Part shown: positions 4,359-18,645 of the stretch, piece by piece
Numbering within the stretch: the first letter of the stretch is position 1
Layout of the letters: each line of letters begins with the position of its first letter
NCBI RefSeq assembly: GCF_014646055.1
Contig: NZ_BMMS01000030.1
Location: forward strand, 1 to 64,000
DNA: 64,000 nucleotides
DNA from: Wenjunlia tyrosinilytica
GTDB taxonomy: Bacteria > Actinomycetota > Actinomycetes > Streptomycetales > Streptomycetaceae
Direction of reading: 5' to 3'
The notes under the pieces: model-generated
What the model saw: only the letters and a program-made list of their open reading frames with translations
Databases searched by the model: none
What the model was told of the DNA's origin: nothing
Position numbers and translations under genes: made by a program

Positions 4359-5603
4359 TCATCGGGTCCGGGTACGCCCACTGTGTGATGTCCTGGGGCC
4401 GGACCGGGGCGGGACGCGGCACAGCTCGTCGCTGATGCGGTTGAACAGCGCGTCGGCCCGCGCGCCCATCCCGGGCCCGTCCGGATACGACATGGTCAGC
4501 TCCGTGCGCCCTTGGGCCTGCACGGTGACGATCGAGGCGGGCGTGAGCGGTGCCCGCACGGCCAAGGAGTACACGGTGCTCGCCTTGAACCCCGCGGTGG
4601 ACAAGCCGCAGAGATCGACCCGGCCGAGATTGGAGATGAGCGTCGAGCACACGTACCTGCGCCGTCTCGTGACGACCGCGTTCGCGGCTGCCAGAGCCGT
4701 GCCGAGGGCGCGCAACGGAAGGCGGGCGGCTGCCTGCTCCGTGCCGCGGCTGAGCTCCCGCCGTTCGTCCAGTGCCCTGCGCAGCCGCTTGTGGAAGTCT
4801 TCCGCCGCGTCGCAGGTCCGTCCATCGACGAACACGGGCAGGGTCAGGTTGGCGGTCGACGCCAGGCCCGCGTCGTGTCGGCGCAGGTCGACCGGCACCA
4901 TGAACCGGACCTCCTCGGCGTCCTCAACGTTGGCGATCGCCGCGGCCACCCTGGCCACCAGGCCGGGGAAGTTGCCGTCGAGCGTGCGGCGCCTCCAGCG
5001 GAAGGAGGGGCGGGCCACCCGCTCGGCGGACACCCCGGCGCGGTCGAGCGGCGAGCGGAAGTTCAGGCCCAACCGCGGCCTCGCGCCCGTCGTGCCGAGT
5101 TCGGACAGCAGCGAGCGCTCGGTCGCCCCGGACCGCGCACCCACTGGCTCCTCGCCGCGCAGAGCACGGAAGACCTCGGCCATCCAGGTCAGCACGCCCC
5201 TGCCGTCCATGACGCCGTGGAACGCCCGGAAGACGACGGTGCAGGGCTCTCCCGCCAGTACCAGCACCTCGCAGGTGGGCCCGTTCACCGGATCGAGCGG
5301 GCTGCGGAGCGGTTCGGCGTTCTCGAAACGCGTGCGGTCGATCGCCGTACCGTCGACCACCCGCACCGCGGGTGCCTGGCCGCTGTCCACCCAGATCCGG
5401 CCCCTTCTCACCAGTCGCGCACCTGGACAGGCGGCTGATGCCACGGCCACGGCGCGGCTGAGCTCCGAGCGATCCATCCGGCCGTGCCCCTCGACGACGA
5501 GCTGGATGGCGAACGGCGGCGCCAGGCCCATTGCGCCGAGATAGAACCACTCGGTCGGTGAGATCGGCCGCTGGTAGGGGCCGCCGGTCTTGGAAGCGCC
5601 CAT
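4359..5603 (-). CDS. Stand-alone condensation-like acyltransferase (HxxxDG)
   Basis: 414 residues. N-terminal segment PISPTEWFYLGAMGLAPPFAIQ and the motif FRAFHGVMDGRG near 125-135 contain the HxxxDG catalytic signature of the condensation/PapA/WS-DGAT fold. In such enzymes this His promotes attack of an amine or hydroxyl on an acyl thioester. The C-terminal half carries STLISNLGRVDL, like the channel-closing region of these proteins. ATG 5603 lies two bases after the stop of the 74-residue gene; an in-frame GTG at 5609 is the alternative. It is last in the leftward NRPS operon. It may add an acyl group to the NRPS product, for instance on a hydroxyl, but it could also bind rather than catalyse. 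Confidence 0.7.
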   Translation of the reverse strand: MGASKTGGPYQRPISPTEWFYLGAMGLAPPFAIQLVVEGHGRMDRSELSRAVAVASAACPGARLVRRGRIWVDSGQAPAVRVVDGTAIDRTRFENAEPLRSPLDPVNGPTCEVLVLAGEPCTVVFRAFHGVMDGRGVLTWMAEVFRALRGEEPVGARSGATERSLLSELGTTGARPRLGLNFRSPLDRAGVSAERVARPSFRWRRRTLDGNFPGLVARVAAAIANVEDAEEVRFMVPVDLRRHDAGLASTANLTLPVFVDGRTCDAAEDFHKRLRRALDERRELSRGTEQAAARLPLRALGTALAAANAVVTRRRRYVCSTLISNLGRVDLCGLSTAGFKASTVYSLAVRAPLTPASIVTVQAQGRTELTMSYPDGPGMGARADALFNRISDELCRVPPRSGPRTSHSGRTRTR

Positions 5604-5605
5604 GG

Positions 5606-5830
5606 TCACCGCACCCTCCGGAGGTACTCGCCGACGCCGTGGATCTCGTCCGCCCACCGCTGCCACCGGCCAGGACCGGTGGCCCGGCCGACCGCATGCC
5701 GGGAGCCGAGGTCCCTCCGGGGGCTGGACGCCGAGATGATGACGTCGGGTTGATCCGCGCAGCATTGGGAGCGTCCCAGGCTGTCCTTTGCGGCGCGCAG
5801 GCCGATGGACTCGGATCGGGTATGGGGCAT
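5606..5830 (-). CDS. Small 74-residue protein in NRPS operon
   Basis: ATG 5830 follows GAGGAG at normal spacing, and the TGA stop lies two bases before the next gene's ATG, so it is very likely translated. It begins MPHTRSESIGLRAAKDSLG, contains a Cys-Cys pair near residue 23 and SASSPRRDLGSR in the middle, and ends GRWQRWADEIHGVGEYLRRVR. No signal peptide or membrane segment is visible. I do not recognise it; it is not an MbtH protein (no NxExQxSxWP). It could be an accessory factor, a truncated enzyme or a short peptide product. Confidence 0.55.
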   Translation of the reverse strand: MPHTRSESIGLRAAKDSLGRSQCCADQPDVIISASSPRRDLGSRHAVGRATGPGRWQRWADEIHGVGEYLRRVR

Positions 5831-5919
5831 GGCTTCTCCTCATCGAACAAGGTGCATCGGCTCCGGGTTCGATGAACCAGCGGAGGTGATCGGTGGAGCA
5901 CGCACGATGAGAAGTCCTG

Positions 5920-6369
5920 TTACCGAGCGGCCGCGTACTCCGACAGGCCCTTTATGCATTTCTCGACGAAGTTGCCGAGAAGTCGGCGGGCCAGCCGACC
6001 GGTCCAGGGCACCGTGGGAAGGAAGGAGCAGCGCCAACGGATGACCGTACCGTCGTCGGTCGCTTCCAGTTCGATCTCGCCCCGGTAATCGCGGACCGCG
6101 GGGAGCCCGGACAGCGTCCGGTAGCCGAGACGGCGGTCGGGCACGAGTTCTGCGATCTGCACCCTGCTGGCGACCTCGCCCGTCGGGAAATCACTGCGGA
6201 AGACACGAATGGCTCCCACGCCTTCCTTCTCCTCGTCACCCGGCCGCTCCAGTTCGAACGATCCGACAGGGGACCAGGTCGGCCAGCTCGCGCCGTCCCG
6301 CAGCAGTTCGTACACAGCGGCTGGCGCCGCGCTTGTCCGTGCCTCGTGGTAGATGAGTTGACGACCCAT
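5920..6369 (-). CDS. SRPBCC (START/Bet v1-like) protein
   Basis: 149 residues, the usual size of polyketide cyclase/dehydrase-like SRPBCC proteins, which form a deep hydrophobic cavity. Visible family features are APAAVYELLRDGASWPTWSP near the N-terminus, GAIRVFRSD and ELVPDRRLGYRTLSG in the strand region, and a C-terminal helix (RLARRLLGNFVEKCIKGL). ATG 6369 is chosen over the upstream TTG 6375 because GGAGG sits eight bases before the ATG. Third gene of the leftward NRPS operon. Roles known for the family include ring closure, aromatisation and lipid binding; here it might bind or cyclise the released aldehyde, which is inference only. Confidence 0.75.
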   Translation of the reverse strand: MGRQLIYHEARTSAAPAAVYELLRDGASWPTWSPVGSFELERPGDEEKEGVGAIRVFRSDFPTGEVASRVQIAELVPDRRLGYRTLSGLPAVRDYRGEIELEATDDGTVIRWRCSFLPTVPWTGRLARRLLGNFVEKCIKGLSEYAAAR

Positions 6370-6496
6370 GACCAAGTCCTCCGGTGGGGGTAGCGAGCGC
6401 CGTTGATGCTTTTCGAAGGGCGGGCGACAGGAGGCGGGAAAAGCTGGTCCTGTCGATCCCAGGAATCCGCAGAGCCGAATGTGCGCTGTTCTTGGC

Positions 6497-7483
6497 TCAG
6501 CTCAGGACGCAGCCGTTGCCCGGCCGCGAAGGCCGGGACCTGCGATGGTCCCGGTGTGTGAAAGTGCGGTGCAGCCACCGGTCACGGCCGTCGTAGCGGG
6601 GTGTGAAGTGCGTCCGGCCGTGGATGGCGATTCGATTGTCCAGCACGGCGAGGTCGCCGGAGTGCAGCACGACGTTTCTCTTCACCTCGGAGAAAGCGTT
6701 CTTGAGGTGTTCAAGGGCCTGCCGGGCTTCGTCGTCACACGGTTGTGTCGTGTGGAAGTCCACACGCACGTCCGGATCTTCGATGTCTCCTTCGAGCACG
6801 CGGCACAAGGCGGCCTGACCGTTCCCACGGCCGAAAGAAGGCGGCGCCTTTGTGGTGAATCTTGATTCGAACAGCACTCGCTTGGCCGATTCGGGCAGCA
6901 GCGGGAGAGCGCGACGGATGGATGACACCACAGTGCCCGCGCTCCCCTCGTGATCACCGCGCAGGCAAAGCAGCGCAACGTAGTCGGGCCGGTGCGGGTG
7001 GAAGGCGTTCTCCGTGTGCATTTCCAGATTTCGCGAACCCATGTTGCTCTGTGCTCTCTCCCTGCCCCGGACCGGTACCACGTCCTGGACCAGGGCGCCC
7101 TGCTTCTCGCTGCGGAAGGCCAGCATCTCCCCCAATTGCAGGGAGACGAGCGCTGCCACGGAGGCCTCGGTCGTGGACGTCCGCTGGACGGACTCCGGCG
7201 CCGAGGGAGTCGGCGGCAGAGCGGACTCGTCCACCGGCAGGTTTCGAAGGACAAGCAACCCGTCCTGACCCGGATCGTGGCTGTAGGCCCGGATCAGTTC
7301 ACGCAACCGAAGTGGCAGCCGGCCGGACAGGATCCGCGCCGCGTGCAGCCACTTGGAGTCGTCCACGAGCTGCGGCGCTGTATCAGCCAGCTCGATGGCG
7401 ACAAGGCCGAGCTCCTCTCGCTCTTCGTCGGTGAGGGTCAGGTGGGACTCACGGGGAGTCTGGGCGACCACTGTGTCGATCAT
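6497..7483 (-). CDS. Fe(II)/2-oxoglutarate dioxygenase, L-asparagine 3-hydroxylase-like
   Basis: 328 residues, clavaminate synthase/AsnO/VioC type. The iron triad is visible as H156-x-E158 (LEMHTENAF) and distal H289 (DNRIAIHGRTHF), with a 2-oxoglutarate-binding Arg in RYDGRDRWLHRTF. The HxE rather than HxD motif and the residue numbering nearly match AsnO of the calcium-dependent antibiotic pathway, which converts free L-Asn to 3-hydroxy-Asn. Other polar residues near the pocket (E126, N147, D242) also appear to be kept, judged from memory of AsnO. It lies 49 bases downstream of an NRPS whose adenylation pocket reads as Asn-type, which supports the substrate. ATG 7483 has a weak GGA ribosome site. 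Confidence 0.8.
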   Translation of the reverse strand: MIDTVVAQTPRESHLTLTDEEREELGLVAIELADTAPQLVDDSKWLHAARILSGRLPLRLRELIRAYSHDPGQDGLLVLRNLPVDESALPPTPSAPESVQRTSTTEASVAALVSLQLGEMLAFRSEKQGALVQDVVPVRGRERAQSNMGSRNLEMHTENAFHPHRPDYVALLCLRGDHEGSAGTVVSSIRRALPLLPESAKRVLFESRFTTKAPPSFGRGNGQAALCRVLEGDIEDPDVRVDFHTTQPCDDEARQALEHLKNAFSEVKRNVVLHSGDLAVLDNRIAIHGRTHFTPRYDGRDRWLHRTFTHRDHRRSRPSRPGNGCVLS

Positions 7484-7532
7484 GGTGTTTCTTGATTCCT
7501 TCCGGTGAAGGATCTACCGCTTCAACGACTGT

Positions 7533-10500
7533 TCAGGCGCCGGGGGCAAGGAATCCGGAATCGGCGAAATACTGGAAGTAGCGTTCAAGCACGGAACCGT
7601 CCACCTTTGGACACTCGATGCCTGACCCGCCGAGCCCGCGAATGGTCGCGCTCCGGTCGAACCGGAAGTCCCCCATGAGCTCTCCTGCCGCCCCGTCGGC
7701 GATGAGCAGTGCGACGTGGTGCAGCGAGCTGTCCTCCGTTGCGGTCGCCACCGCGTGTGCCTGCTGTAGCCTTCTCGCCCACTCCCGCTGGGGCACGGCG
7801 TCGATCCGATGACCGAGCGATTTGAGGTGGTCCACTATGACGTCGACTCGTGTCGGCTCGGGGTTGGTGAGGTTGTAGGCGGCACCGTTCGGCTCCGCGC
7901 CGAGCCCGAGATGCACGACCGCCCTGGCGACGTAGTCGACGGGCACGAGATCGACGCTGGTCACCGAGCCGGGGCCGCCATCAGGAATCGGCATGGCACC
8001 GAGCTCGATGCCGGCCCTGACGTAGTGCCAGAACGCGTCATCCGCTCCGACCACTCCCGTGCCGGTGGCCCCGCTGATGCGGCCCGGACGGTAGACGGCT
8101 GTGGGAACTCCCCGCCGCCCGGCGGCCCGTACGAGTTCCTCGGCCGTCCACTTGCTGCGTACGTACCCGTTGGACGGCACCAGTTCCGGCGCGACTCTGC
8201 GATCCTCGAGCAGGAGCTCCGGGTTGTCGGCAGCGGACACCAGAACGCTGATGGTGGAGATGTGGTGCACGGGCTTCACCCGGTGTGTGGTGGCCAGCCT
8301 GAGGATCTCATGGGTTCCCCCCACATTGGCCGCCTTGACCCGGCTGTAGGGATCGGCCAGGTTCACCCGTGCCCCGTTGTGGTAGATGACGTCCACCTGC
8401 TTGGCCAGTGCGTCGAATCCGTCGGTACGCAGGCCGAGCAGAGGCTTCTCCAGATCCCCCGCGAGCACGGTGACGCGCGTGCCCACTGCCTGGTCCGAGA
8501 GCCGGTACTTCGCCAGGGTCCGACGAAGCCGCGACTGCGCCTCGTCCCCGTCCGCGGCCCGTACCAGGCACACCACCTCCGCCTGCGTCCGGCGCACGAG
8601 CTCATCGAGCAGGAACGCGCCCAGGAAGCCGGTCGCACCTGTGAGCAGGACGCACCCGGGTTCGCTGTTGCGCAGGGGTTCCGACGGCTTGGCGTTCGCG
8701 GCGGTGATCGATGGATCCAACACGGCCTCGGTGGCCAGGTCAGCCGCTTCGGCCGGGCCGTCGCCGTTCGCTTCCGCCGCCAGCGCGGCACGTACGACTC
8801 CCGAAACCGTGGGTGCCTCCAAGAACGCGTGGAGCGGCAGTTGAGCACCCAGAACCGGGCGGATCCGGTCCACCAGGCGCAGCGCCAGCAGCGAGTGCCC
8901 GCCCAGATCGAAGAAGCTGTCGTCAACGCCCACCCGGGGCACGCCGAGCACATCGGCGAAGATCGCGCAAAGGAGCTCTTCGCGTGGCGTCCGCGGGTCT
9001 CGGCCGGTTGCCGCCGCCCGGAAGTCGGGCGACGGCAACCCCTTGCGGTTCAGTTTGCCGTTGCCGGTCAGCGGCAGGGCGTCCATCATCACGAAGGCGC
9101 TCGGCACCATGTAGTCGGGCAGGCTGTCGGCGGCATGCTGTCGCAGGGCGGCCGCGGGTACACCGCGGCCGTCGGGGACCGCATACGCCACAAGGCGCCT
9201 GTCCCCGGGATGGTCCTCCCGCAGGATCACCGCCACTTGGCCGACGCCCGGGTGGGTTTGCAGCACTGCCTCGATCTCACCGAGTTCGACGCGGAACCCA
9301 CGGAGCTTGACCTGGTCGTCGACGCGGCCGATGATCATCAAGGTGCCATCGCTGTTCCACTTGGCCAGGTCCCCGCTGCGGTACATCCGAGAGCCGGACG
9401 GGCCGAACGGGTCGTCAAGGAACCGTTCCGCGGTCAGTCCCGGCTGGTTCACGTAGCCGTCAGCGAGGCCGGCACCGCAGATGTAGAGCTCGCCCACCCT
9501 GCCGGGGGGCAGCAGACGCCGGTCGGAGTCGAGGACGTAGAACCGGGTGTTCCATGACGCGCGTCCGATCGTCACGGGCCCGGCTGGGACGCGGTCGCCG
9601 GGCGCGATCCGGAACTCGGCGCATCCGACCGTGGTTTCCGTGGGGCCGTATTCGTTGACGACCGTGGTAGCGGGATGGGCCCTGCGCCACTGGTCCAGCA
9701 CATCACCCACCAGCATCTCGCCCCCCAGCACCAGCTCCCCGGTGGGCGAGAAGTGGTCGGGCAGGGCGCTGAGCACCGGCAGATGGCTGGGCGTTGCCTT
9801 GACGAACGTGGGCGGGTGGCGGCGTACCGCGGCAGCTGCGCGAGAACCGTCGTCGCTGAGGCCCGCCAGCACGACCTTGCCGCCGCAGATGAGCGGCACA
9901 AAGAGCCCGGTCGCCGTCAGGTCGAACGACAGCGGCGAATGCAGCAACGCGGTGCCGGCGGCACTGGGGTAGGCGTGCTGGGCCCATGACAGATAGTTCG
10001 TCAGCGCCCGATGCCCGATCACCACACCCTTGGGCCGGCCTGTCGAGCCGGAGGTGTAGATCACAAGAGCCGGGCTGTCCATGGTGAGCGGCCGGATCCG
10101 CTCGGCATCGCGCGGGTCGGCCGCGGAAGAGCCGGTCACCTCTTCCACCGTCCTGGCGTCATCGACGATCAGCACGGCTGCGGATGCGGGGAGCCTGTCG
10201 ACCAGCGCCGACGTGGTGAGCACACACGCCGCGTCGGCCTGCTCCACCATATGGGCGATCCGTCGTGCGGGGTGTTCCACGTCGATCGGCAGATATGCCG
10301 CCCCGGCCTTGAGTACGGCGAGCACCGCCACGACCATGTCCACCGAACGCGGCAGCGCGACCACCACCACCTGTCCGGAACCGATGGACCGCGAGATCAG
10401 CAGACGCGCCAGCCGGTTCGCCCGGGCGTTCAGCTCCGCATAGCTGATCTCGGAGTCCTCGTGTACGAGCGCCGTGTCCTGGGGCGTCTGCCCGGCCTGC

Positions 10501-11897
10501 ATCTCGAACAGCGCGGGCACAGGCTTGTCCGGCACCTCGTGGGCGGTGTCGTTCCACTCGATCAGCAGTCGGTCCCGCTCCTGCGGTTCCAGAATGTCGA
10601 ACTCGCCGATGCGGTGATACGGATCCGCGGTGGTGATCTTCTCCAGCAGTCCGGTGAGTCGTCGATGGTGCATAGCGACATCGCCGCTGGTGTAGAGCTC
10701 CGAATTCGCGTTGAAGTCGATGCGGATGCCACCGGACGCAGAATCCTCGTAGACGGCGACGGACAGGTCGTTGACCGGGCCCGTCGTCAGTGGTCGAAGC
10801 TCGGACCGGAGTCCGGCGAAAGCCGGTGGCTGAAAGAAGGATATGTAGTTGACCGATACACCGAAAGGACTCTCTTCGGCGTGCAGTTCGAGGTCGAGCC
10901 GCATGTCCTCATACCGGTACCGCTGATGCCGCAGGGCCTGCCTGACCTCCTCCGAGGTCTGATTCAGCAGTTCGGAGAGCGTCATGTCCCGATTTACCGT
11001 CAAACGTAACGGCAGGAGGTTCACCATCATGCCGGGGGTGATACTCGCCGCGGGGCTCTTGCGGTTCGCGGCGGGGAACTCCAGGACGATATCCGTCGCC
11101 CCTGTCATTCGATGCAGGTAGGCCGCGGTCGCGGCGAGGAAGATGTTCGACAGCCGGGCTCCTGTGCGTTGCGCCATGTCGCGCAGGTTGTCCACGGTTG
11201 AGGGCGGAAGGTACCGCGTCCGGCGCACGAACGTCCTGGACGTCGCAGCCGCCCGACCTGCCAGACTGGTGGGCTCGGGTCGGTCGGCCAGGCGCTCCGT
11301 CCAGTATCGGCGGTCCTGGAGGAACTGCTCCGACGCACGGTAGCCCTCTTCTTCGTCGAGCAGCCGGCGAAGTGGGCCGAAGGGATTCGCGGTGCAGGGC
11401 CGGCCCTCGACCAGGGAGCCGTAGACATCCGTCATCCGCCAGGTGATGAGGGCGCTGGCGAAGGCGTCCAACAGGATGTGATGGATCCGGACGTACCAGT
11501 AGAACCGCTCGGGTCCCACCTTGAAAACGGCCGTGGTGAACAGCTCATCACTGTGCAGATCGGCCGGTGTGGCCAGATCGTTCTTCATCCATCGCTCGGC
11601 CGCCTCATGCGGGACGGTCGTCTCACTCACGTCGATGACGGGCAAGAGGACATCGGCGCGGGGTCGTACGATCTGCTTCGGTCCCGGCCCGTCCATGACG
11701 AAGCGGAGCCGAAGCGCATCGACCTCCGCAACCACTTTCCGCAGCGCCGCCTGGAACAGATCCAGGTCCAGTGAGCCGTTTATCTCGACGTAGTGGCTGA
11801 CGTTGAATACTGGATTATCGGGGTCGAACTGCTGCGCCAACCAGATTCCGAGCTGGCCGGGCAATAAAGGTAAGCGGGTATCCTGGCGCTCAGACAC
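7533..11897 (-). CDS. Single-module NRPS: C-A-T-reductase, predicted Asn-specific
   Basis: 1454 residues from GTG 11897 (GGGAG ten bases upstream; upstream in-frame ATGs at 11936 and 11942 are alternatives). Domains: condensation about 10-430 with HHILLDA near 139, the usual final Gly replaced by Ala; adenylation about 450-960 with YTSGSTGRPKGV near 615 and TGNGKLNRK near 945; carrier domain with LGGHSLLAL near 998; terminal reductase about 1085-1454 with TGATGFLGAFLLDEL and the Y-x3-K pair in YVRSK. Aligning the pocket by eye to GrsA gives D-L-T-K-V-G-E-V-G-K, an Asn-type code. With no upstream carrier, the condensation domain probably takes an acyl-CoA. NADPH-dependent reductive release would give an N-acyl asparaginal or asparaginol. 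Codons 9 and 11 are TTA, suggesting bldA-dependent translation. Confidence 0.9.
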   Translation of the reverse strand: MSERQDTRLPLLPGQLGIWLAQQFDPDNPVFNVSHYVEINGSLDLDLFQAALRKVVAEVDALRLRFVMDGPGPKQIVRPRADVLLPVIDVSETTVPHEAAERWMKNDLATPADLHSDELFTTAVFKVGPERFYWYVRIHHILLDAFASALITWRMTDVYGSLVEGRPCTANPFGPLRRLLDEEEGYRASEQFLQDRRYWTERLADRPEPTSLAGRAAATSRTFVRRTRYLPPSTVDNLRDMAQRTGARLSNIFLAATAAYLHRMTGATDIVLEFPAANRKSPAASITPGMMVNLLPLRLTVNRDMTLSELLNQTSEEVRQALRHQRYRYEDMRLDLELHAEESPFGVSVNYISFFQPPAFAGLRSELRPLTTGPVNDLSVAVYEDSASGGIRIDFNANSELYTSGDVAMHHRRLTGLLEKITTADPYHRIGEFDILEPQERDRLLIEWNDTAHEVPDKPVPALFEMQAGQTPQDTALVHEDSEISYAELNARANRLARLLISRSIGSGQVVVVALPRSVDMVVAVLAVLKAGAAYLPIDVEHPARRIAHMVEQADAACVLTTSALVDRLPASAAVLIVDDARTVEEVTGSSAADPRDAERIRPLTMDSPALVIYTSGSTGRPKGVVIGHRALTNYLSWAQHAYPSAAGTALLHSPLSFDLTATGLFVPLICGGKVVLAGLSDDGSRAAAAVRRHPPTFVKATPSHLPVLSALPDHFSPTGELVLGGEMLVGDVLDQWRRAHPATTVVNEYGPTETTVGCAEFRIAPGDRVPAGPVTIGRASWNTRFYVLDSDRRLLPPGRVGELYICGAGLADGYVNQPGLTAERFLDDPFGPSGSRMYRSGDLAKWNSDGTLMIIGRVDDQVKLRGFRVELGEIEAVLQTHPGVGQVAVILREDHPGDRRLVAYAVPDGRGVPAAALRQHAADSLPDYMVPSAFVMMDALPLTGNGKLNRKGLPSPDFRAAATGRDPRTPREELLCAIFADVLGVPRVGVDDSFFDLGGHSLLALRLVDRIRPVLGAQLPLHAFLEAPTVSGVVRAALAAEANGDGPAEAADLATEAVLDPSITAANAKPSEPLRNSEPGCVLLTGATGFLGAFLLDELVRRTQAEVVCLVRAADGDEAQSRLRRTLAKYRLSDQAVGTRVTVLAGDLEKPLLGLRTDGFDALAKQVDVIYHNGARVNLADPYSRVKAANVGGTHEILRLATTHRVKPVHHISTISVLVSAADNPELLLEDRRVAPELVPSNGYVRSKWTAEELVRAAGRRGVPTAVYRPGRISGATGTGVVGADDAFWHYVRAGIELGAMPIPDGGPGSVTSVDLVPVDYVARAVVHLGLGAEPNGAAYNLTNPEPTRVDVIVDHLKSLGHRIDAVPQREWARRLQQAHAVATATEDSSLHHVALLIADGAAGELMGDFRFDRSATIRGLGGSGIECPKVDGSVLERYFQYFADSGFLAPGA

Positions 11898-12022
11898 GTG
11901 AATTTTGCTCCCAATCGCGGATTCGCCAAGGTTCATAAACATGCTCAGAAGTCGGCATGTCTCTCGTGAAGGCATCCCCATAAGATCAGAGCCGCGTGCG
12001 AGCATGCAACTTTATGCAGCCC

Positions 12023-12040
12023 ATGTGGTCCAGACCACAT
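12023..12040. promoter_or_regulatory. GntR-type (DasR-like) palindrome upstream of the NRPS
   Basis: ATGTGGTCCAGACCACAT is a perfect dyad with 8-base arms around CA, 126-143 bases upstream of the NRPS start. The core TGGTC-N2-GACCA is that of HutC/GntR-family sites and matches the DasR-responsive element consensus core. A plausible leftward promoter (TTGCAT, 18 bases, TCTTAT) lies just downstream. Dyad seen directly; regulator assignment inferred. Confidence 0.55.
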
Positions 12041-12756
12041 CACCGGACCTCAAGATCGCGCCAGCTTTCGCCCATGTCAGAGGTGGGCGGGCCGGGCCGA
12101 GAGTCGTCCCGTGGGAGGCCGTGTCCAGAGTGTGACGCGGATAGATATGGCATAAGCCATATACTTCTTCGCCGGGTTTTGGCCGGCCACCGTTCGCGTG
12201 CCGGGCCCGGCGCGCGCTTTTGGTGGTTGTGCCACCCTTTCGGCGAAGTGCGAGGACGTCCTCGTCCGTCGGCGCGATATCGAAGTCGCCGAGAACGCAT
12301 CCCCGCGCCGCTCGGGCGCGGCGCCTGCGGGGCTCTGCCTGCGGATGGTTCGCCTGCCGAGTCAATGCCGCCGACCGCGAAGCGCGCCCGCCCTCCGGTG
12401 CGGGCGCCTGCCCCCAAACGCGTCTCCCACCTCCAGCGCTGAATCCGCGCGGCAGCCGTCGGGGAAGACTGCGACAGCGGTGGGACCGTCTCCCACCGCG
12501 CAGCCGCCCGTCGACGACGCCATCCTGATCGGCATCGAGCGCAACGGAGGGACCGGCACCGGCGCGGGCCTGCGGATGCGTGCCGACGCCGTGGACCTCA
12601 CTGCCTGTGCGACCCGGGCCGGGCGCCTCCTGGACCTCGACAACCCGGCAGCTGCCGATCAACCACGCCCAGGACGAAGAGGAAGACCTCCCCCGGACCG
12701 ACCGGCTTCGCCTGCACCCCGCTCGACAAGACCGACCTCGCCGCCGAGAGCAGCAA
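12041..12756. other. Gene-poor region with one short palindrome
   Basis: No open frame here has convincing coding character. It contains the AT-rich dyad ATATGGC-ATAA-GCCATAT at 12145-12162. A + strand stretch about 12460-12640 has fairly protein-like composition (DDAILIGIERNGGTGTG) but no clear start or family, so it may be a gene remnant. Confidence 0.4.
12145..12162. promoter_or_regulatory. Perfect 7-bp-arm palindrome, possible operator
   Basis: ATATGGC and GCCATAT flank ATAA. It stands out as AT-rich in very GC-rich DNA, about 250 bases upstream of the NRPS start. No regulator can be named. Confidence 0.3.
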
Positions 12757-12789
12757 GGGCCTGTCCGGCGGATCCTGCCGGACAGGCCC
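12757..12789 (-). terminator. Hairpin terminator after DUF1062 gene
   Basis: Thirteen-base perfect arms (GGGCCTGTCCGGC and its complement) around a 7-base loop, 18 bases past the stop of the leftward DUF1062 gene. The flanking GAGCA/TGCTC extends the stem with mismatches. Confidence 0.8.
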
Positions 12790-12806
12790 CTGCTCCCGGG
12801 GAGGGC

Positions 12807-13355
12807 TCAGCGCTTGAGCGTGAAGGTGAAGTCGCCTGAGAGCTTGCCGCTCAGCCGGACTGCCGAAACGAGCTTCCCCTCCGTGACCAGTCTGTCGACC
12901 TCGGCCCGCGAAAGACCGCAACCTTCAGCGATCAGTCGCACCGGCCGGACAGGGATCCGCGCCGCGAAGCGGACCGAGACGTCGATCACCTCACGGTCCA
13001 GGTGATCCGATCCGCCGGTGTCGAGGCGCCAGGCGTCGTCCCAGTCGAGGGCGATGCGATTACGGCGCTGCACGACCGGATCCTGGAGCAACTCACCTGT
13101 CAGGCCAGGGTCGTTGTCATGCAGCCGGTCCAGCAGCTCAGGTCGTACGGAGCGCACGTTCATCCGCTCCAGGACCGTGAGCTTTGCGGTCTCCCCGCAA
13201 GCGGTACAGAGCGCGAGGAGCCAGGCGTCGATGAGCTTGTGGTTGGCGTTGACGCGAAATCTGCCGCTCGCCCGGAAGCGCTCGGACGCGCACGCGTGGC
13301 AACGGCGGAGAACCAGCGGCAGGCAGGTGGGCACGACCACCCAGTTTTTGAGCAC
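12807..13355 (-). CDS. DUF1062 domain protein
   Basis: 182 residues, covering the whole family length. Near the N-terminus it has NWVVVPTCLPLVLRRCHACA and, around 50-55, LCTACGE; these paired CxxC motifs probably bind zinc. It continues with KLTVLERMNVRSVRPELLDR and ends RLSGKLSGDFTFTLKR, all typical of actinobacterial DUF1062 proteins. The function of the family is unknown; the C-terminal part (GLSRAEVDRLVTEGKL) resembles an RNA-binding S4-like helix, which is a loose impression. The start is GTG 13355 with no clear ribosome site, so translation may be leaderless. It stands alone, with its own terminator. Confidence 0.8.
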   Translation of the reverse strand: MLKNWVVVPTCLPLVLRRCHACASERFRASGRFRVNANHKLIDAWLLALCTACGETAKLTVLERMNVRSVRPELLDRLHDNDPGLTGELLQDPVVQRRNRIALDWDDAWRLDTGGSDHLDREVIDVSVRFAARIPVRPVRLIAEGCGLSRAEVDRLVTEGKLVSAVRLSGKLSGDFTFTLKR

Positions 13356-13724
13356 AGAAGTACACCGGTTTCAGTGAGAAGTCCGCAGCAAGAAGCAGCG
13401 CGGCGCGCATGCGCGCCGCGCGACGAATCAGCGCTCGGGAGGTCTCACAGGGTGTACAACGGCACGTCCTTGACTGGAGGACTTGGTTCGGCAGCACGGT
13501 AATGGCGCACAGCGGCGCTGTTCCACTGGTTTTCGAGCACCTCGACCGCCGGGTTCCATCCGGCGCGGTTCCGGGTGGAGGCCGAGGCCGGTTCTCCGGC
13601 GGTTGCGGCGCGTCGGCCTGACGGGGCTTCGGGGTCGGTGCACGGCACCCGGGAGCGCGGGGGAGAGGGTGGCCTCGTCTGCCGGCGCCTCGGGGTGCCG
13701 TGCTTGCGGTGGACTCGCCCGCTT
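13356..13724. other. Intergenic region, no gene seen
   Basis: High-GC spacer downstream of the small exported peptide gene and upstream of the DUF1062 gene, both leftward. Open frames here are Arg/Pro/Ala-rich and lack starts with ribosome sites. It contains GGCGCGCATGCGCGCC-like self-complementary sequence near 13400, but I see no other structure. Confidence 0.4.
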
Positions 13725-13952
13725 TCAGTCGCGCTTCGGCATGGGGGCGTTTCCGGCTTCCTTCATGCGCTCGGGCGTCCAATAGTCCAGGACCTTGTCC
13801 GGGTCCTGCCGTACATCGTTCATCGTGGTCCCCGAGTCCGGCTGCGGCTCGGGTTCCGGGTCGGTGGCCGCGGTACGCCGGGCGGCCATCGCCGCCACAG
13901 CGGAGACGAGGGCGGCGGCCGCTGCCCAGCGGGTCGGACTACTGCGACGCAT
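13725..13952 (-). CDS. Small exported protein carrying a YWTPERM motif
   Basis: 75 residues; ATG 13952 follows AAGGAG at a spacing of seven. It has a signal-peptide-like N-terminus (MRRSSPTRWAAAAALVSAVA), an acidic Pro-rich linker, and then DKVLDYWTPERMKEAGNAP before the stop. The same YWTPERM motif occurs in the propeptide of the trypsin-like protease encoded 30 bases upstream in the same direction (ALARYWTPERMAKAVPLDN). It is thus either a free-standing copy of a protease pro-region, perhaps acting in trans as inhibitor or folding aid, or the surviving front of a truncated protease paralogue. The good ribosome site favours expression. Confidence 0.6.
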   Translation of the reverse strand: MRRSSPTRWAAAAALVSAVAAMAARRTAATDPEPEPQPDSGTTMNDVRQDPDKVLDYWTPERMKEAGNAPMPKRD

Positions 13953-13982
13953 GAGCTGTCTCCTTCTCCGGTGTCCGGTCTG

Positions 13983-15005
13983 TCAGGTGACGCCGCCCTG
14001 GGCGTCGTACATCGCTTTGACCGCGTCATCGAAGTAGGCGGCCTCGTTCCAGCCGCCCGAGGTGACGGTGCTCATCACTCCGTTGACGGATCCGAGACCG
14101 TTGGAGTCGTTGAAAGTACGCAGCCACGGCCCACCGCTGGAGCCGCCGCCGAAGTTGCACTGAAGCTCGAGGCCGCCGTCACTGGCTGCCCGTGTCGTAC
14201 CGATGCACGCCCACTGGATCTCCCCGCCGCCGAAGTTCCCGGGGTAGGCCAGGATGGTGATGGGCTGCGTGCGCGAGAAGTTCCAGCTCATCCCGTGACC
14301 GCCCGTGACATTGACGAGCTTGTTCCCGTTGAGCGGCCAGGTGGTCACCATGGCCACGTCCCGCCTGAGGTCGCTGCTGTTGATCCAGGCGTTGAACGTG
14401 CGCAGCTGCTTGGCGGCGAAGGTGCCGAATGGACGGGCCCCGGAACGGTAACGCGGCACATAGACCCAGTTTGTCATCCACGTGCCGCCTCTGCCGCCGT
14501 GTACGCAGTGCCCGGCCGTGACCACCATCTGCTTTGAGTCACTGTTGAGAGCACTCGCCGAACAGGTGTAGGTGCCGCCGTTGCTGGGGTTGGTGAAGAA
14601 CACCTTGCCCACCGCGGCGGATTCATTGATGAGCGGCGCCACGGTGTGGGAGCGGGCGGGGGCGGCCGGGATCATTCCCGGCTTCCCGGTGGGTCCGGCC
14701 TTCTTGGCGGCGTTCGGCCGCGACGGGGCGGCCAGGTTGTCGAGCGGGACGGCCTTCGCCATCCGCTCCGGCGTCCAGTAGCGCGCCAGCGCGGCGGCGT
14801 CCTGCGCGGAGTCGACCGGTGCCCCGCTCGACAGCCGCGCGGTGTGAACGCTGGTCGCGCCGTTCCCGGCGGTGGTGAGAGCACCGGTGATGGGGCCGGT
14901 TTTGGTTTCGGCCGGGGCGGGCGCCGCCTCGGCCGTTCCCGCGCCGATCAGTGCCAGTACGGTGGCCGCGGCCAGCGGGAGTATCGCGTATCTGAGACTG
15001 CGCAC
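13983..15005 (-). CDS. Secreted trypsin-like serine protease (V8/S1B-like)
   Basis: 340 residues from GTG 15005, with AAGGAG seven bases upstream. A Sec signal peptide (LRYAILPLAAATVLALIGAG, then AEAAPA) is followed by a pro-region with ARYWTPERM near 80-88 and the protease domain from about 125. The triad is visible: His in VTAGHCVHGG near 165, Asp in RRDVAMVTTW near 215, and Ser in GGGSSGGPWL near 290. It would act outside the cell on protein substrates. Several Cys residues suggest disulfides. An AT-richer spacer of about 950 bases lies upstream, and the small YWTPERM peptide gene follows, probably co-transcribed. Cleavage specificity cannot be read. Confidence 0.9.
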   Translation of the reverse strand: MRSLRYAILPLAAATVLALIGAGTAEAAPAPAETKTGPITGALTTAGNGATSVHTARLSSGAPVDSAQDAAALARYWTPERMAKAVPLDNLAAPSRPNAAKKAGPTGKPGMIPAAPARSHTVAPLINESAAVGKVFFTNPSNGGTYTCSASALNSDSKQMVVTAGHCVHGGRGGTWMTNWVYVPRYRSGARPFGTFAAKQLRTFNAWINSSDLRRDVAMVTTWPLNGNKLVNVTGGHGMSWNFSRTQPITILAYPGNFGGGEIQWACIGTTRAASDGGLELQCNFGGGSSGGPWLRTFNDSNGLGSVNGVMSTVTSGGWNEAAYFDDAVKAMYDAQGGVT

Positions 15006-15953
15006 GAACTTCTCCTTCGATTGCTCTTGGAGTGCATATTTCTGATGGCATGGCCGATCAGTGTGCGGAGCACAGCGAACCTAGGCGTGGCGGGAACGTG
15101 CGAAACAGCATCAGATCAGCCGCTCTGTTTTTCGCTTTGGGGAGCCCTTCTTTTCGGCCGGTCCGGATTACCGCTTGTTTTCACGGGTCGCTGTGTCATG
15201 GGCACGGTCGTGGCGTCAGTCGCGTCTTCTCTCGGATGAGCGGGCAGGCGGAGGGCCCCGAGGCGCACCCCGGGCCCCGGCCGATACCGGTGAACGACAC
15301 TGCCGACGCACGTCGGGCTGCCGTGAACCGGCCGGACAAAGGGGTGCACCAGGACAGCTACGGCGGGCTTTTTGGCGCGTACATGTCCTTGGTGAAGGGA
15401 TCGGGAGGGCCGGGGGTACAGGCTTGTGCGCGGCCGCAGGACGGGGAACCAGCCGGGAGGAGGGAGCGGCGTGCGGCCTGCCCCTCCTGGCGCTTCAGCA
15501 TCGTCTTGCTATTTCTGCTGGTCAGGGACCTGTTTCTGAATGTCGATGAGCTGCCGTCCCGTCAGATACGCGCCTCCGGACTTGTGGTGGGTGCGGGTTC
15601 GGCGCAGGTATTCGCGGTGACTGGCGACGGCTTGGTGCCGACGTTGCCGACGGGAGTTGTGTGGCAGTCGTGGCGGCCCGGGACGCGAACCACCATGCCG
15701 GGCCGGCCTGCGAGGGGCGGGCGGCCAAGCTGCTCGCCCACGTGGTGCGCGGCACCCGGGTGCGCGGCGAGGCGGCGCAGGCGTCGGAGTTTGCCTGACA
15801 TCGGCAGACGCGGTTCCAGCCGGGCCCATTCCTCATGCGTCGGATCGCCCCGGCCCACGCCCGAGTCAACGATGCGAGCAGGGGCCCGTCGCTTCTGAGG
15901 GTGTCACTTGGCGGTGCCGGGCTGGTGGGGGCGCGTGTGGAGTCCGGCCCTCG
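15006..15953. other. Long intergenic region containing a possible IS remnant
   Basis: Nearly 950 bases without a confident gene. The part just upstream of the protease (15010-15200) is AT-richer and probably holds its promoter. A second AT-richer patch lies at 15500-15545. A possible transposase fragment at 15565-15858 is listed separately. The remaining frames look non-coding. Confidence 0.45.
15565..15858 (-). pseudogene. Possible IS5-type transposase N-terminal fragment
   Basis: The leftward frame opens with GDPTHEEWARLEPRLPMSGK, resembling the N-terminal (L)TDEEWARLEPLLP element of IS5-family transposases. It then loses resemblance and no catalytic DDE segment is present. If real, it is a short decayed remnant. 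No terminal inverted repeats were found. Confidence 0.35.
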
Positions 15954-16511
15954 TCACTGGCCCACCCTCCCGTCGATGCACTCGCGCAGCAGGTCGGCGT
16001 GCCCGCAGTGACGGGCATACTCCTCGATCCTGTGCACCATCAGCTCCCGGATTGCGATCTCGTCCTTGCCCACACGCTCGCCCAGATCCGGGTGCTCGGC
16101 CAGCGCGGCGTCGGTCGCCGCCTGCTCACGCTCCAGATCGGCGTACGCGGCGTCGACCATGGCCTGCTCGGCGGCAGCTCCCTCGAAGTCCGCGTCACGC
16201 CGGCCGTACAGCTTCGGCAGGGGGTCACCGCCGCTGATCCAGTTGCGCCAGTCCCGTTCCACCTCGGCGAGGTGCCGGACCAGGCCGAGCAGCGACATCG
16301 TCGACGGCGGAACCGACCGACGGGCCAGCTGCTCCGCATCCAGGCCCTCGCACTTCATCCGCAGGGTCAGGCGGTAGCCCGTCAGGAAGTCCTGCAGCGT
16401 CGCAAGCTCACCGTCCGGACTGACACCCTTGTCGCGGGGGTCGTCGTCCGGGTCGGCCCACATGTCGGGATAGACGGTTGCCTGGGTCCATCGTGCGGGC
16501 TGATCACTCAT
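15954..16511 (-). CDS. DinB/DUF664 family protein (mycothiol-dependent enzyme-like)
   Basis: About 185 residues. Four-helix DinB/DUF664 protein: GELATLQDFLTGYRLTLRMKCEGLDAEQL, the segment MSLLGLVRHLAEVERDWRNW with a conserved metal-binding His, and the C-terminal HRIEEYARHCGHADLLRECIDG with further His ligands. In actinobacteria these proteins are metal-dependent, mycothiol- or bacillithiol-linked transferases or uncharacterised damage-response proteins. Start ATG 16511 is the usual MSD- start; ATG 16520 three codons upstream is equally possible, neither having a strong ribosome site. Appears monocistronic. Confidence 0.85.
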   Translation of the reverse strand: MSDQPARWTQATVYPDMWADPDDDPRDKGVSPDGELATLQDFLTGYRLTLRMKCEGLDAEQLARRSVPPSTMSLLGLVRHLAEVERDWRNWISGGDPLPKLYGRRDADFEGAAAEQAMVDAAYADLEREQAATDAALAEHPDLGERVGKDEIAIRELMVHRIEEYARHCGHADLLRECIDGRVGQ

Positions 16512-16817
16512 ACATTGCATCTTGATCCGCGACGGCCCAAGTCCGCCACTGAATTCCTCATCGCGAGGTGACGCCGTGGTGGCATCAGGAAGGCGCCGCT
16601 CTCGGCGACTCGGCTCTCCAAAGGAGACAGGCCGCATGGGCAGGTCCGGCGGCCTGCTCGACCGCCGCAGCGGTGGGCTGCTGGGGAAGAGCGTGACGAT
16701 CATGGCGCTCAGCGGTGTCCGGTCGGCACGTCGGTGCCCGCGCAGCCTGTCAGGCTCGTGGTGGCCCAGCAGGCCGGGAAGGGAAGAGCCGTCCGCCGTG
16801 TCGTGGGCGACGAGGGA

Positions 16818-17411
16818 TCAGAGGTCTTTGGGGTCGACCGGGATCCCTCGCGTTGTGCCGTCGATGCCCGCTCTGCTCTGCGCGATGATCTCCTGGACGT
16901 GCTGCTCGATCCGCTGCGGGTCCAGGCCCAGTGCCTTGCCAATGTGGACCGACCACACCTCGGAGCGCAGGTTGGTCTCGAAGTCCAGATCCGCCCGGAC
17001 GTTCTCCCGCGCCGCCTGCCGGTTCTGACTGACCATGACGAATGTGGACAGGAAGATCGCCTCCAGGCTGACGATCATGGTGAGCAGCCCGAACGGGTAC
17101 GGATCGAAGACGCCCGCCTTCCCCAGCAGGCCCTCGTTCAGCACGATCCACGCGGTGAACCAGACGGCGTGGATGCAGACGAACCCCATCGTCCCCGCGA
17201 ACGCGGTGATCGCGTCGGCGACCCGGTCCTGCGAACCGCGCATCCGGGCGAACTGGACCCGCTCGTGGCGAAGGCGGACGACGGGCTGCCCATCGGTGCT
17301 CCCGCCCGCACACGCAGTGCGGTCGCGACCGGCAGGGTCCCCTCGTCCGCGTGGTCGGACAGATCCGCGAAGCGGGGACCGGCTGCCCGCCGGGCTCTGG
17401 GCGTCAGACAT
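16818..17411 (-). CDS. DUF1003 membrane protein
   Basis: 197 residues from ATG 17411, with GGAG six bases upstream. Residues about 65-130 contain two transmembrane helices (FAGTMGFVCIHAVWFTAWIV and LLTMIVSLEAIFLSTFVMVS) followed by SQNRQAARENVRADLDFETNL, the conserved cytoplasmic end of DUF1003 proteins. The family's function is unknown; some members occur in stress loci. The first 55 residues are Arg/Gly-rich and unlike typical members, so a frameshift or a later true start is possible. It lies just before the oxygen-limitation island but on its own. Confidence 0.75.
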   Translation of the reverse strand: MSDAQSPAGSRSPLRGSVRPRGRGDPAGRDRTACAGGSTDGQPVVRLRHERVQFARMRGSQDRVADAITAFAGTMGFVCIHAVWFTAWIVLNEGLLGKAGVFDPYPFGLLTMIVSLEAIFLSTFVMVSQNRQAARENVRADLDFETNLRSEVWSVHIGKALGLDPQRIEQHVQEIIAQSRAGIDGTTRGIPVDPKDL

Positions 17412-17547
17412 TCACGACTCCATGTTCGAGACCGCCCGGACTGTGGCGGTGGGACCGGGAACGGGACGAGCAGGCAAGCTCCATGGGCGGCGGTACGCGC
17501 CGACGCGGCGCGGGAGTTGAGTCGGCCGGGAGCCTGCATACGGTGCG

Positions 17548-17596
17548 GCAGCGTGGCCGCCGACCCGGCCGAACTCTGCGACGGCGGCCACGCTGC
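17548..17596 (-). terminator. Hairpin terminator after GAPDH gene
   Basis: Fifteen-base perfect arms (GCAGCGTGGCCGCCG at 17548-17562, complement at 17582-17596) with a 19-base loop, 21 bases beyond the GAPDH stop. Confidence 0.8.
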
Positions 17597-17616
17597 GGCG
17601 CTTGAGTCCTCGCCGG

Positions 17617-18645
17617 TCAGCTCTGCGGGAGCCGGGTGGCGACGTGGTCGGTGAGGTCGAGGAGCCGGTTGGTGTAGCCCCACTCGTTGTCGTACCAGCC
17701 GAACACCTTGACCAGGTCGCCGTGCGCCTGGGTCAGCGGGGCATCGAACACGCAGGAGGCCGGGTCGCCCACGATGTCTCGGGAGACGATCGGGGCTTCG
17801 GACACCCGCAGCACGCCCTTGAGCGGCCCGTCCGCCGCCTCCCGGAAGGCGGCGTTGACCTCGTCGACGCTCACCGGACGGTCCAGGACCACGGTCAGGT
17901 CGGTCAGCGACCCGTCCTCCACCGGGACCCGTACGGCGCTGCCGTCCAGGGTGCCGGCCAGTCCGGGCAGGACGAGGCCGACAGCGCGGGCGGCGCCGGT
18001 GGACGTGGGGATGATGTTGACGGCGGCGCTGCGGCCGCGGCGCAGGTCCTTGTGCGGGCCGTCGAGGACGACCTGGTCGTTGGTGTAGCCGTGGATGGTG
18101 GTCATCAGGCCCTTGACCAGGCCGAAGTGCTCGTCGAGGACCTTGACCATGGGCGCCACGCAGTTGGTGGTGCAGGAGGCGTTGGAGATGACATGGTCGT
18201 TCTCGGGGTCGTAAGTGTCCTCGTTGACGCCCATCACGATCGTGGCGTCGACGCCCTTGCCCGGCACGGACAGCAGCACCTTGCGCGCCCCGCCCTTCAG
18301 GTGCGCTCCGGCCGTCTCGCGGGTCCGGAAGCGGCCGGTGGACTCGACGACGATGTCCACACCGAGATCCGCCCAGGCCAGCGCGGCCGGGTCGCGTTCG
18401 GCGGTCACGGCGATGCGCTGCCCGGCCACGGTGATGGAGGTGTCGTCGTGCTCGACGCTGCGGCCGAGGCGGCCGAACGTGGAGTCGTACTCCAGCAGGT
18501 GGGCCAGCGCCTCCGGTGAGGTGATGTCGTTGATGGCGACGACCTCGACCGGCGTGCCGTGCCCGGTCTCCGCGCGCTTCAGCACCAGGCGCAGGTAGTT
18601 GCGTCCGATGCGGCCGAATCCGTTGATGCCCACGCGCACGCTCAT
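17617..18645 (-). CDS. gap: Type I glyceraldehyde-3-phosphate dehydrogenase
   Basis: 342 residues. N-terminal Rossmann motif VGINGFGRIGRNYLRL, catalytic Cys in SNASCTTNCVAP near 160, the conserved segment TTIHGYTNDQ, NIIPTSTGAARAVG, and the C-terminal WYDNEWGYTNRLLDL are all intact. It oxidises glyceraldehyde 3-phosphate to 1,3-bisphosphoglycerate in glycolysis. ATG 18645 has GGAGG at eight bases. It lies 135 bases downstream of a DevR-like regulator on the same strand. Because it sits in an oxygen-limitation island, it is probably a second, condition-specific GAPDH serving glycolytic flux during fermentation. A near-dyad GGGAC-N5-GTCCC lies about 96 bases upstream. Confidence 0.95.
   Translation of the reverse strand: MSVRVGINGFGRIGRNYLRLVLKRAETGHGTPVEVVAINDITSPEALAHLLEYDSTFGRLGRSVEHDDTSITVAGQRIAVTAERDPAALAWADLGVDIVVESTGRFRTRETAGAHLKGGARKVLLSVPGKGVDATIVMGVNEDTYDPENDHVISNASCTTNCVAPMVKVLDEHFGLVKGLMTTIHGYTNDQVVLDGPHKDLRRGRSAAVNIIPTSTGAARAVGLVLPGLAGTLDGSAVRVPVEDGSLTDLTVVLDRPVSVDEVNAAFREAADGPLKGVLRVSEAPIVSRDIVGDPASCVFDAPLTQAHGDLVKVFGWYDNEWGYTNRLLDLTDHVATRLPQS

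Follow-up and report, generated by a model that had tools for sequence, protein, structure and literature searches.

The rotihibin (rth) cluster of Streptomyces scabies, as outlined in PMC8552735, combines the AsnO-type enzyme RthM with two modules of a nonribosomal peptide synthetase (NRPS) predicted to load asparagine, a terminal reductase, and a lipid tail, and its product ends in L-asparaginol, the formation of which by the reductase is the authors' own inference. Further described systems with related parts are the fragin/valdiazen (ham) cluster (PMC5878181) and the lipstatin-type clusters, for which oleACD and LstAB provide background in the outlines given by PMC7064751 and PMC12141560. 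Here we compare these systems with a locus of Wenjunlia tyrosinilytica, contained in a window (the whole analyzed stretch of 64,000 nucleotides, bases 1 to 64,000 of contig NZ_BMMS01000030.1) of a genome of 8.49 Mb. The locus centers on a one-module NRPS with a starter-type condensation (C) domain, an Asn-type adenylation (A) domain, a peptidyl carrier protein (PCP), and a thioester reductase domain (TD), accompanied by an AsnO-type dioxygenase, an SRPBCC protein, and a free-standing C-like acyltransferase. It is probably a compact operon for a small lipo-amino-acid derivative and, judged by its genes, appears to be a variant of known reductive-release lipopeptide chemistry in which the one-module gene set is what is new. 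An earlier, sequence-only reading of this stretch knew of no described pathway with these genes; this stands for the one-module gene set but not for the combination of AsnO, Asn modules, and a reductase, which the published outline of rotihibin already contains (PMC8552735).

Rotihibin and the window are alike, as far as that outline goes, in an L-asparagine oxygenase, Asn-type loading, a reductase, and a lipid. Rotihibin's own features are the pentamodular RthA plus RthB, a fatty acyl-AMP ligase with an acyl carrier protein (ACP), MbtH, and an ABC transporter, whereas the window has an SRPBCC protein and a free-standing C-like enzyme, neither of which appears in Table 1 of the rotihibin report. 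The window has a single module, and a second carrier, MbtH, and a transporter were unmatched among the genes scanned; we therefore rejected membership in the rotihibin clusters. One-module Cs-A-PCP-TD architecture (Cs, starter C domain), a fatty-acid ligase, and a TauD-superfamily enzyme are shared with the Sco isonitrile clusters, as far as these are described, and with locus L183, which we take from its gene set to be of the isonitrile-lipopeptide type. The genes of L183 are TauD, FcoT, ligase, ACP, Cs-A-PCP-TD, and a periplasmic binding protein; features that set such clusters apart from the window are the ACP, an FcoT-like thioesterase, a ScoE-type rather than AsnO-type dioxygenase, and a different pocket. 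Colibactin-type prodrug modules (ClbN) likewise join a starter C domain to an Asn-specific A domain and a T domain, but have an epimerase instead of a reductase and are followed by elongation. Lipstatin-type beta-lactone NRPSs (LstE-like) contain a C-like domain homologous to the window's free-standing protein, although there it is fused to A-PCP, with KASIII, 3beta-HSD, and ligase genes in the contexts scanned. The ham cluster, in the outline of PMC5878181, also combines a polyketide-cyclase gene and a free-standing C enzyme with a reductase NRPS, whereas its Val-loading A-T-R protein without a C domain, its diazeniumdiolate genes, its aminotransferase, and the position of its starter C domain in HamF are its own. 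Membership in the ham (fragin) clusters was rejected, since an N-oxygenase, a haem oxygenase, and an aminotransferase were unmatched among the window genes scanned.

The NRPS gene (7,533 to 12,005, minus strand) encodes 1,490 amino acids (aa) as its longest open reading frame (ORF). Pfam matches, all above cutoff, are Condensation (residues 43 to 481), AMP-binding (500 to 851), AMP-binding_C (910 to 984), PP-binding (1011 to 1072), and NAD_binding_4 (1121 to 1363). They place the starter-type C domain at 10,563 to 11,879 (with HHILLDA at residue 175), the A domain at 9,036 to 10,508, and the PCP at 8,790 to 8,975 (GGHS, Ser1038); the TD, recognized by TIGR01746 and PF07993, lies at 7,548 to 8,651 and carries Y1281-x3-K1285. 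The NCBIfam model Thioester-redct (TIGR01746) matches in full length over residues 1119 to 1486 (319 bits versus a cutoff of 213), confirming that the module ends in a thioester reductase in place of a thioesterase. The best whole-protein model is that of myxochelin MxcG, yet at 1095 bits versus a cutoff of 2300 this assignment was rejected. Read via hand-picked motif anchors from GrsA motifs, without a GrsA alignment, the pocket of the A domain consists of D695, L696, T699, K736, V759, G761, E785, V793, G794, and K984. The resulting DLTKVGEVGK is made of the same residues as had been picked out by eye, and we take it (pattern DLTK(x)GEVGK) to be an Asn-type code.

Compared alone with the PDB, the C domain is closest to 7c1k (284 bits) and CDA peptide synthetase I (251 bits), followed by EntF and ObiF1 (195 and 194 bits), 1l5a (120 bits), and PvdL, Txo2, and the rest (≤104 bits). 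We take 7c1k to be the starter C domain of RzmA (RzmA-Cs) and the C1 domain of CDA to be a starter domain as well, and these best solved relatives support a starter-type assignment, which fits a lipid start. A fatty-acyl donor could therefore acylate the loaded residue without an upstream module. Among the genes scanned from position 1 to 22,759 (part of the ORFs), the PCP of the NRPS is the only carrier domain matched, in agreement with the missing upstream carrier from which the sequence-only reading deduced a lipid starter.

The dioxygenase (6,497 to 7,483, minus strand; 328 aa), of the Fe(II)/2-oxoglutarate-dependent type, has as its best solved match the enzyme deposited as putative oxygenase and asparagine oxygenase under 2og5/6/7 (279 bits; phmmer, 17 solved matches), that is, AsnO, ahead of clavaminate synthase 3 (174 bits). 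Identity as an Arg or Lys hydroxylase was rejected, Arg beta-hydroxylase and Lys 3-hydroxylase reaching 131 and 130 bits. Along a gap-free alignment, 148 of 313 residues are identical to AsnO. The metal ligands H156 and E158 are those proposed at the outset, but the distal histidine is H288 and not H289; these three residues as well as E126, N147, D242, and R306 are identical to their AsnO equivalents, of which E125, N146, D241, and R305 presumably have active-site roles. AsnO acts on free Asn.

From these parts we propose the following route. The AsnO-type enzyme would, by homology, hydroxylate L-Asn at C3; the A domain would load Asn or 3-hydroxy-Asn onto the PCP; and the starter C domain would add a fatty acyl group from acyl-CoA, supplied perhaps by a neighboring ligase (P0004, discussed below) or by the cell pool. 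Using NAD(P)H, the TD would then reduce the bound thioester, most likely to the alcohol, giving an N-acyl-(3-hydroxy)asparaginol as in rotihibin, whereas a two-electron stop would leave an aldehyde expected to close to a 4-acylamino-5-hydroxy-pyrrolidin-2-one. The C-like enzyme might acylate a hydroxyl of the product or move the PCP-bound acyl-(hydroxy)Asn to an alcohol, and binding, dehydration, or cyclization are candidate roles of the SRPBCC protein. We rank N-acyl-(3-hydroxy)asparaginol first as the probable product and a cyclized aldehyde, the hydroxy-lactam, second, with O-acylation possible afterwards. The asparaginol named by the sequence-only reading is thus retained, while its alternative, a free asparaginal, is disfavored: we rank the alcohol above it because rotihibin ends in asparaginol, and on chemical grounds a free asparaginal should cyclize through the carboxamide of its side chain. 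This expected closure weakens the suggestion of a legumain inhibitor and leaves that of a protease inhibitor unsupported.

Two of the genes called on here differ from their first description. The SRPBCC or polyketide-cyclase-like gene (5,920 to 6,369, minus strand; 149 aa; PF10604 [Polyketide_cyc2], E 1.4e-15, 58 bits) had been overlooked in the sequence-only reading. The C-like gene (4,359 to 5,603, minus strand; 414 aa; FHGVMDG, with H129xxxD133) had been started at 5,843, but the ATG at 5,603 is most likely the start, since relatives align to it by BLAST from a point no more than about 10 residues away. The protein itself has no Pfam or NCBIfam match, and among 21 family members NCBIfam yields one WS/DGAT match at E 0.0018 and one PapA5 match at E 0.018. 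H129 and D133 are invariant in all 21 and correspond to the second His and to the Asp in HHxxxD; in an hhalign comparison of the family profile with 13 C domains, E is 1.3e-4 but the probability 54%, over 326 columns. Identity to the 20 other rows of the family alignment is 32 to 48%, and a single-sequence AlphaFold model (pLDDT 36.8) is too low in confidence for use. Relatives occur in 20 of 121 family genomes and 5 of 340 class genomes (the source genome included in both), and an A domain follows the C-like relative in 16 of the 20 fetched loci, in open frames of 948 to 1,438 aa. Free-standing forms elsewhere are those of L205, in a lipstatin-type cluster, and of L059 to L062, with no A domain following. 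Hence the stand-alone enzyme first described as condensation-like is, by profile, apparently C-related, but it is no ordinary C domain; its sequence relatives mark it as the free-standing form of a family whose members are mostly fused to A-PCP.

Several genomic contexts of this family match, by gene content, the lipstatin pattern: L045 (an AMP ligase together with one KASIII-like and one 3beta-HSD-type gene), L043 on contig C17 of the same genome (two KASIII-like genes and a 3beta-HSD, with no AMP ligase among the genes scanned), a Rhodococcus plasmid (with a formyltransferase), and L205. LstE has C-like-A-PCP architecture and presumably makes the aminoacyl ester in lipstatin-type clusters; esterastin is an N-acetyl-Asn ester. 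Contig C17 bears, at about 8,589 to 18,238, a lipstatin/esterastin-like cluster with C-like-A(DLTKGQEIGK)-PCP, and contig C35 (L044; 7,208 to 10,345) holds a third C-like protein, fused to an A domain with the pocket DVTNGQEIGK. Of the 16 fused relatives that were fetched, 12 have a DVTN pocket.

AsnO-like and C-like genes also stand side by side elsewhere. An AsnO-like gene directly precedes C-like-A-PCP (pocket DLTKGLEIGK) in the polyketide synthase (PKS) clusters L129, L130, L132, and plasmid L137, and a plasmid of Streptomyces atratus (L207; 13,959 to 18,023) has an AsnO-like gene directly before C-like-A(DLTKTVEIGK)-PCP in a PKS cluster of another kind. Two types of PKS cluster thus share the enzyme pair, and the window shows the same functional pairing, although neither of its two genes has its closest relative there. 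The product of the former PKS family is possibly a hydroxyasparaginyl polyketide ester; L129 and L137 also carry a metallophosphoesterase and an acyl-CoA carboxylase subunit. Inheritance of the dioxygenase and C-like genes of the window as one block was considered and is probably not the case, their identities to the linked pairs being too low. With a C-like enzyme, free-standing, of LstE type, and from an ester-forming C-related family that Pfam and NCBIfam do not model, acting in trans on a lipoinitiated, hydroxyasparagine-loaded, reductively released module, the locus could, as a tentative and somewhat unlikely outcome, give an O-acylated N-acyl-3-hydroxyasparaginol or a 3,5-dihydroxy-4-acylamino-lactam; we know of no description of this lipid class.

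Several points weigh against our proposal. The product, the expression, and the action of the enzymes are predictions from sequence, and the pocket code cannot be read for whether Asn or 3-hydroxy-Asn is loaded. The eight dioxygenase positions that we checked do not vary across the 30 aligned relatives (two contigs counted twice); they are therefore family marks and no proof of this enzyme's substrate. The reduced residue of rotihibin is, in its published outline (PMC8552735), plain, non-hydroxylated asparaginol. None of the 21 members of the C-like family has a Pfam Condensation match, their link to C domains being a profile match only. The dioxygenase and C-like protein are 49 to 51% and 40 to 43% identical to the linked pairs, versus up to 62% and 49% elsewhere. 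Finally, the boundaries of the cluster are without conservation support, no related cluster having been found in the loci inspected, and membership is uncertain for the C-like gene, which follows a gap of 316 nucleotides (nt), and for the ligase, which lies on the opposite strand.

Other outcomes of the same genes deserve weighing against the asparaginol. A rather unlikely one is that reduction by the TD ends at the aldehyde, onto which the carboxamide cyclizes, giving a 4-acylamino-3,5-dihydroxy-pyrrolidin-2-one or the dehydrated pyrrolinone with the assistance of the SRPBCC protein. The presence of a cyclase-like SRPBCC gene in the operon speaks for this, as does the ham cluster, the best parallel for such a gene arrangement, which, in the outlines of PMC5878181 and PMC11659414, places a polyketide-cyclase gene and a free-standing starter C enzyme alongside a reductase NRPS, and in which an aldehyde or hemiacetal is the shared intermediate and reduction to the alcohol may use an enzyme from outside the cluster. 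Rotihibin, ending in asparaginol, argues the other way, and the ham parallel is weakened by the ham-specific genes left unmatched in the window. Distinctly less probable is that the C-like enzyme is the true release catalyst, transferring PCP-bound N-acyl-(hydroxy)Asn to a lipid or polyketide alcohol (a lipstatin/esterastin-like ester), with the TD as a side exit. In favor are its relatives with an A-PCP fusion, both in KASIII/3beta-HSD/ligase clusters and, with A domains of DLTK type, in the AsnO-linked PKS clusters, and the KASIII-pair cluster with a fused DLTKGQEIGK protein on contig C17 of the same genome; yet the genes scanned beside the window cluster gave no match to beta-lactone or PKS genes, and an intact TD is present in cis.

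That the cluster is a remnant, with a C-like gene that lost its A-PCP half and an NRPS that is a relic, is very unlikely: the predominance of fused forms and the failure to find an orthologous cluster would agree with it, but the genes are open, their motifs are intact, and free-standing C-like forms exist elsewhere. Least credible of all, to the point of being scarcely tenable, is an isonitrile-lipopeptide-type (ScoA-like) pathway to a metal-binding lipo-amino acid. The Cs-A-PCP-TD architecture and an adjacent fatty-acid ligase are as in L183, but no ACP or FcoT-type thioesterase was matched in the window genes scanned, the dioxygenase reaches 27 bits against the ScoE-like protein of L183 (BLASTP) versus the 279 bits to AsnO (phmmer), and the L183 pocket, DAEDASTVTK, differs from DLTKVGEVGK. 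With a ScoE-like dioxygenase, an ACP, and an FcoT-like enzyme unmatched among the genes scanned, membership in this type was rejected.

Searches for related clusters returned no one-module AsnO-plus-reductase gene set in the loci inspected. The dioxygenase query against 84,980 species genomes, a scan that detects close relatives only, gave 8 relatives at ≤58% identity, while a separate search gave a relative at 61%. We examined 28 AsnO-like loci (the 8 from the species-genome scan plus 20 of 51 other matches), or 26 distinct ones, as L013/L128 and L015/L135 appear, by length, to be the same contigs; no reductase domain matched at E 1e-6 or better in the stretches around them, in a scan that left out C and PCP matches below 60 bits. 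Four genomes (G151, G298, G334, and G335) matched both the TD and AsnO searches at the cutoffs used, with the two matches on different contigs or hundreds of kilobases apart. In genome G109 (L175 and L176), one of the starter-C matches examined, about 15 kb separates a starter-type C domain from an AsnO-like gene within one multimodule NRPS region; its pockets differ, and the stretch examined contains no TD. Queries with the TD (35 of 345 family genomes at 1e-70, best other 49% identical) and with the starter C domain (29 of 394 class genomes at 1e-85, best other 44%) found no orthologue, the source genome being counted in each; surroundings were examined for 3 of 36 other TD matches (L191 to L193) and 11 of 39 other starter-C matches, one of which (L183) has a TD. 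The SRPBCC query matched 15 of 345 genomes (own included; best other 54%), and the other cluster genes were unmatched at the five loci examined, at the cutoffs used; scans of TD, starter-C, and SRPBCC loci left out C matches below 70 bits and A matches below 100 bits, and in these scans as well as those of the C-like and AsnO-like loci FadD4 matches below 200 bits were left out. Of 72,556 plasmid records, 292 matched the NRPS, all below 60% identity, the best full-length row among the 15 matches listed being 39.9%. In the literature, a search for asparaginal, nonribosomal, and reductase returned nothing, and one for asparaginol and nonribosomal returned rotihibin only.

A candidate lipid activator, the FadD4-like acyl-CoA ligase P0004 (2,668 to 4,230, plus strand), is convergent with the operon, and its membership in the cluster is uncertain. 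At the cutoff used, 61 of 150 family genomes have a ligase of this type. The second copy of the genome, on contig C31, is 77 to 78% identical to the three family relatives compared, whereas P0004 is 56% identical to the C31 copy and 56 to 59% identical to the C31 copy and the three relatives together; P0004 is therefore an extra, divergent copy. Its divergence would fit a dedicated role in the cluster, without proving one.

Although the window begins at the contig end, the gene cluster stays clear of that end. The minus-strand order is NRPS, dioxygenase, SRPBCC, and C-like gene, with gaps of 49, 127, and 316 nt. For the NRPS, starts at 12,005 (that of the longest ORF), 11,981, and 11,897 come into question; the GTG at 11,897 has GGGAG ten bases before it and may be a plausible start, perhaps better than 12,005. 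A possible 74-aa ORF (5,606 to 5,830, minus strand), which may be no gene, has an AGGAG-like site, no Pfam match, and a stop 2 nt before the ATG at 5,603. The left flank consists of a gene at 594 to 1,781, with no convincing Pfam match, and a CapC gene, and the right flank of a DUF1062 gene, a weak trypsin-like match, and a mycothiol transferase.

Overall, the locus would present the AsnO-plus-reductase chemistry of rotihibin shrunk to one module and four to five genes, which is small enough for reconstitution in vitro. A further gain is the view it gives of an acyltransferase family, C-related and lacking Pfam and NCBIfam matches, that recurs with beta-lactone-type and AsnO-linked polyketide clusters, and through this recurrence the reaction of the family becomes testable.

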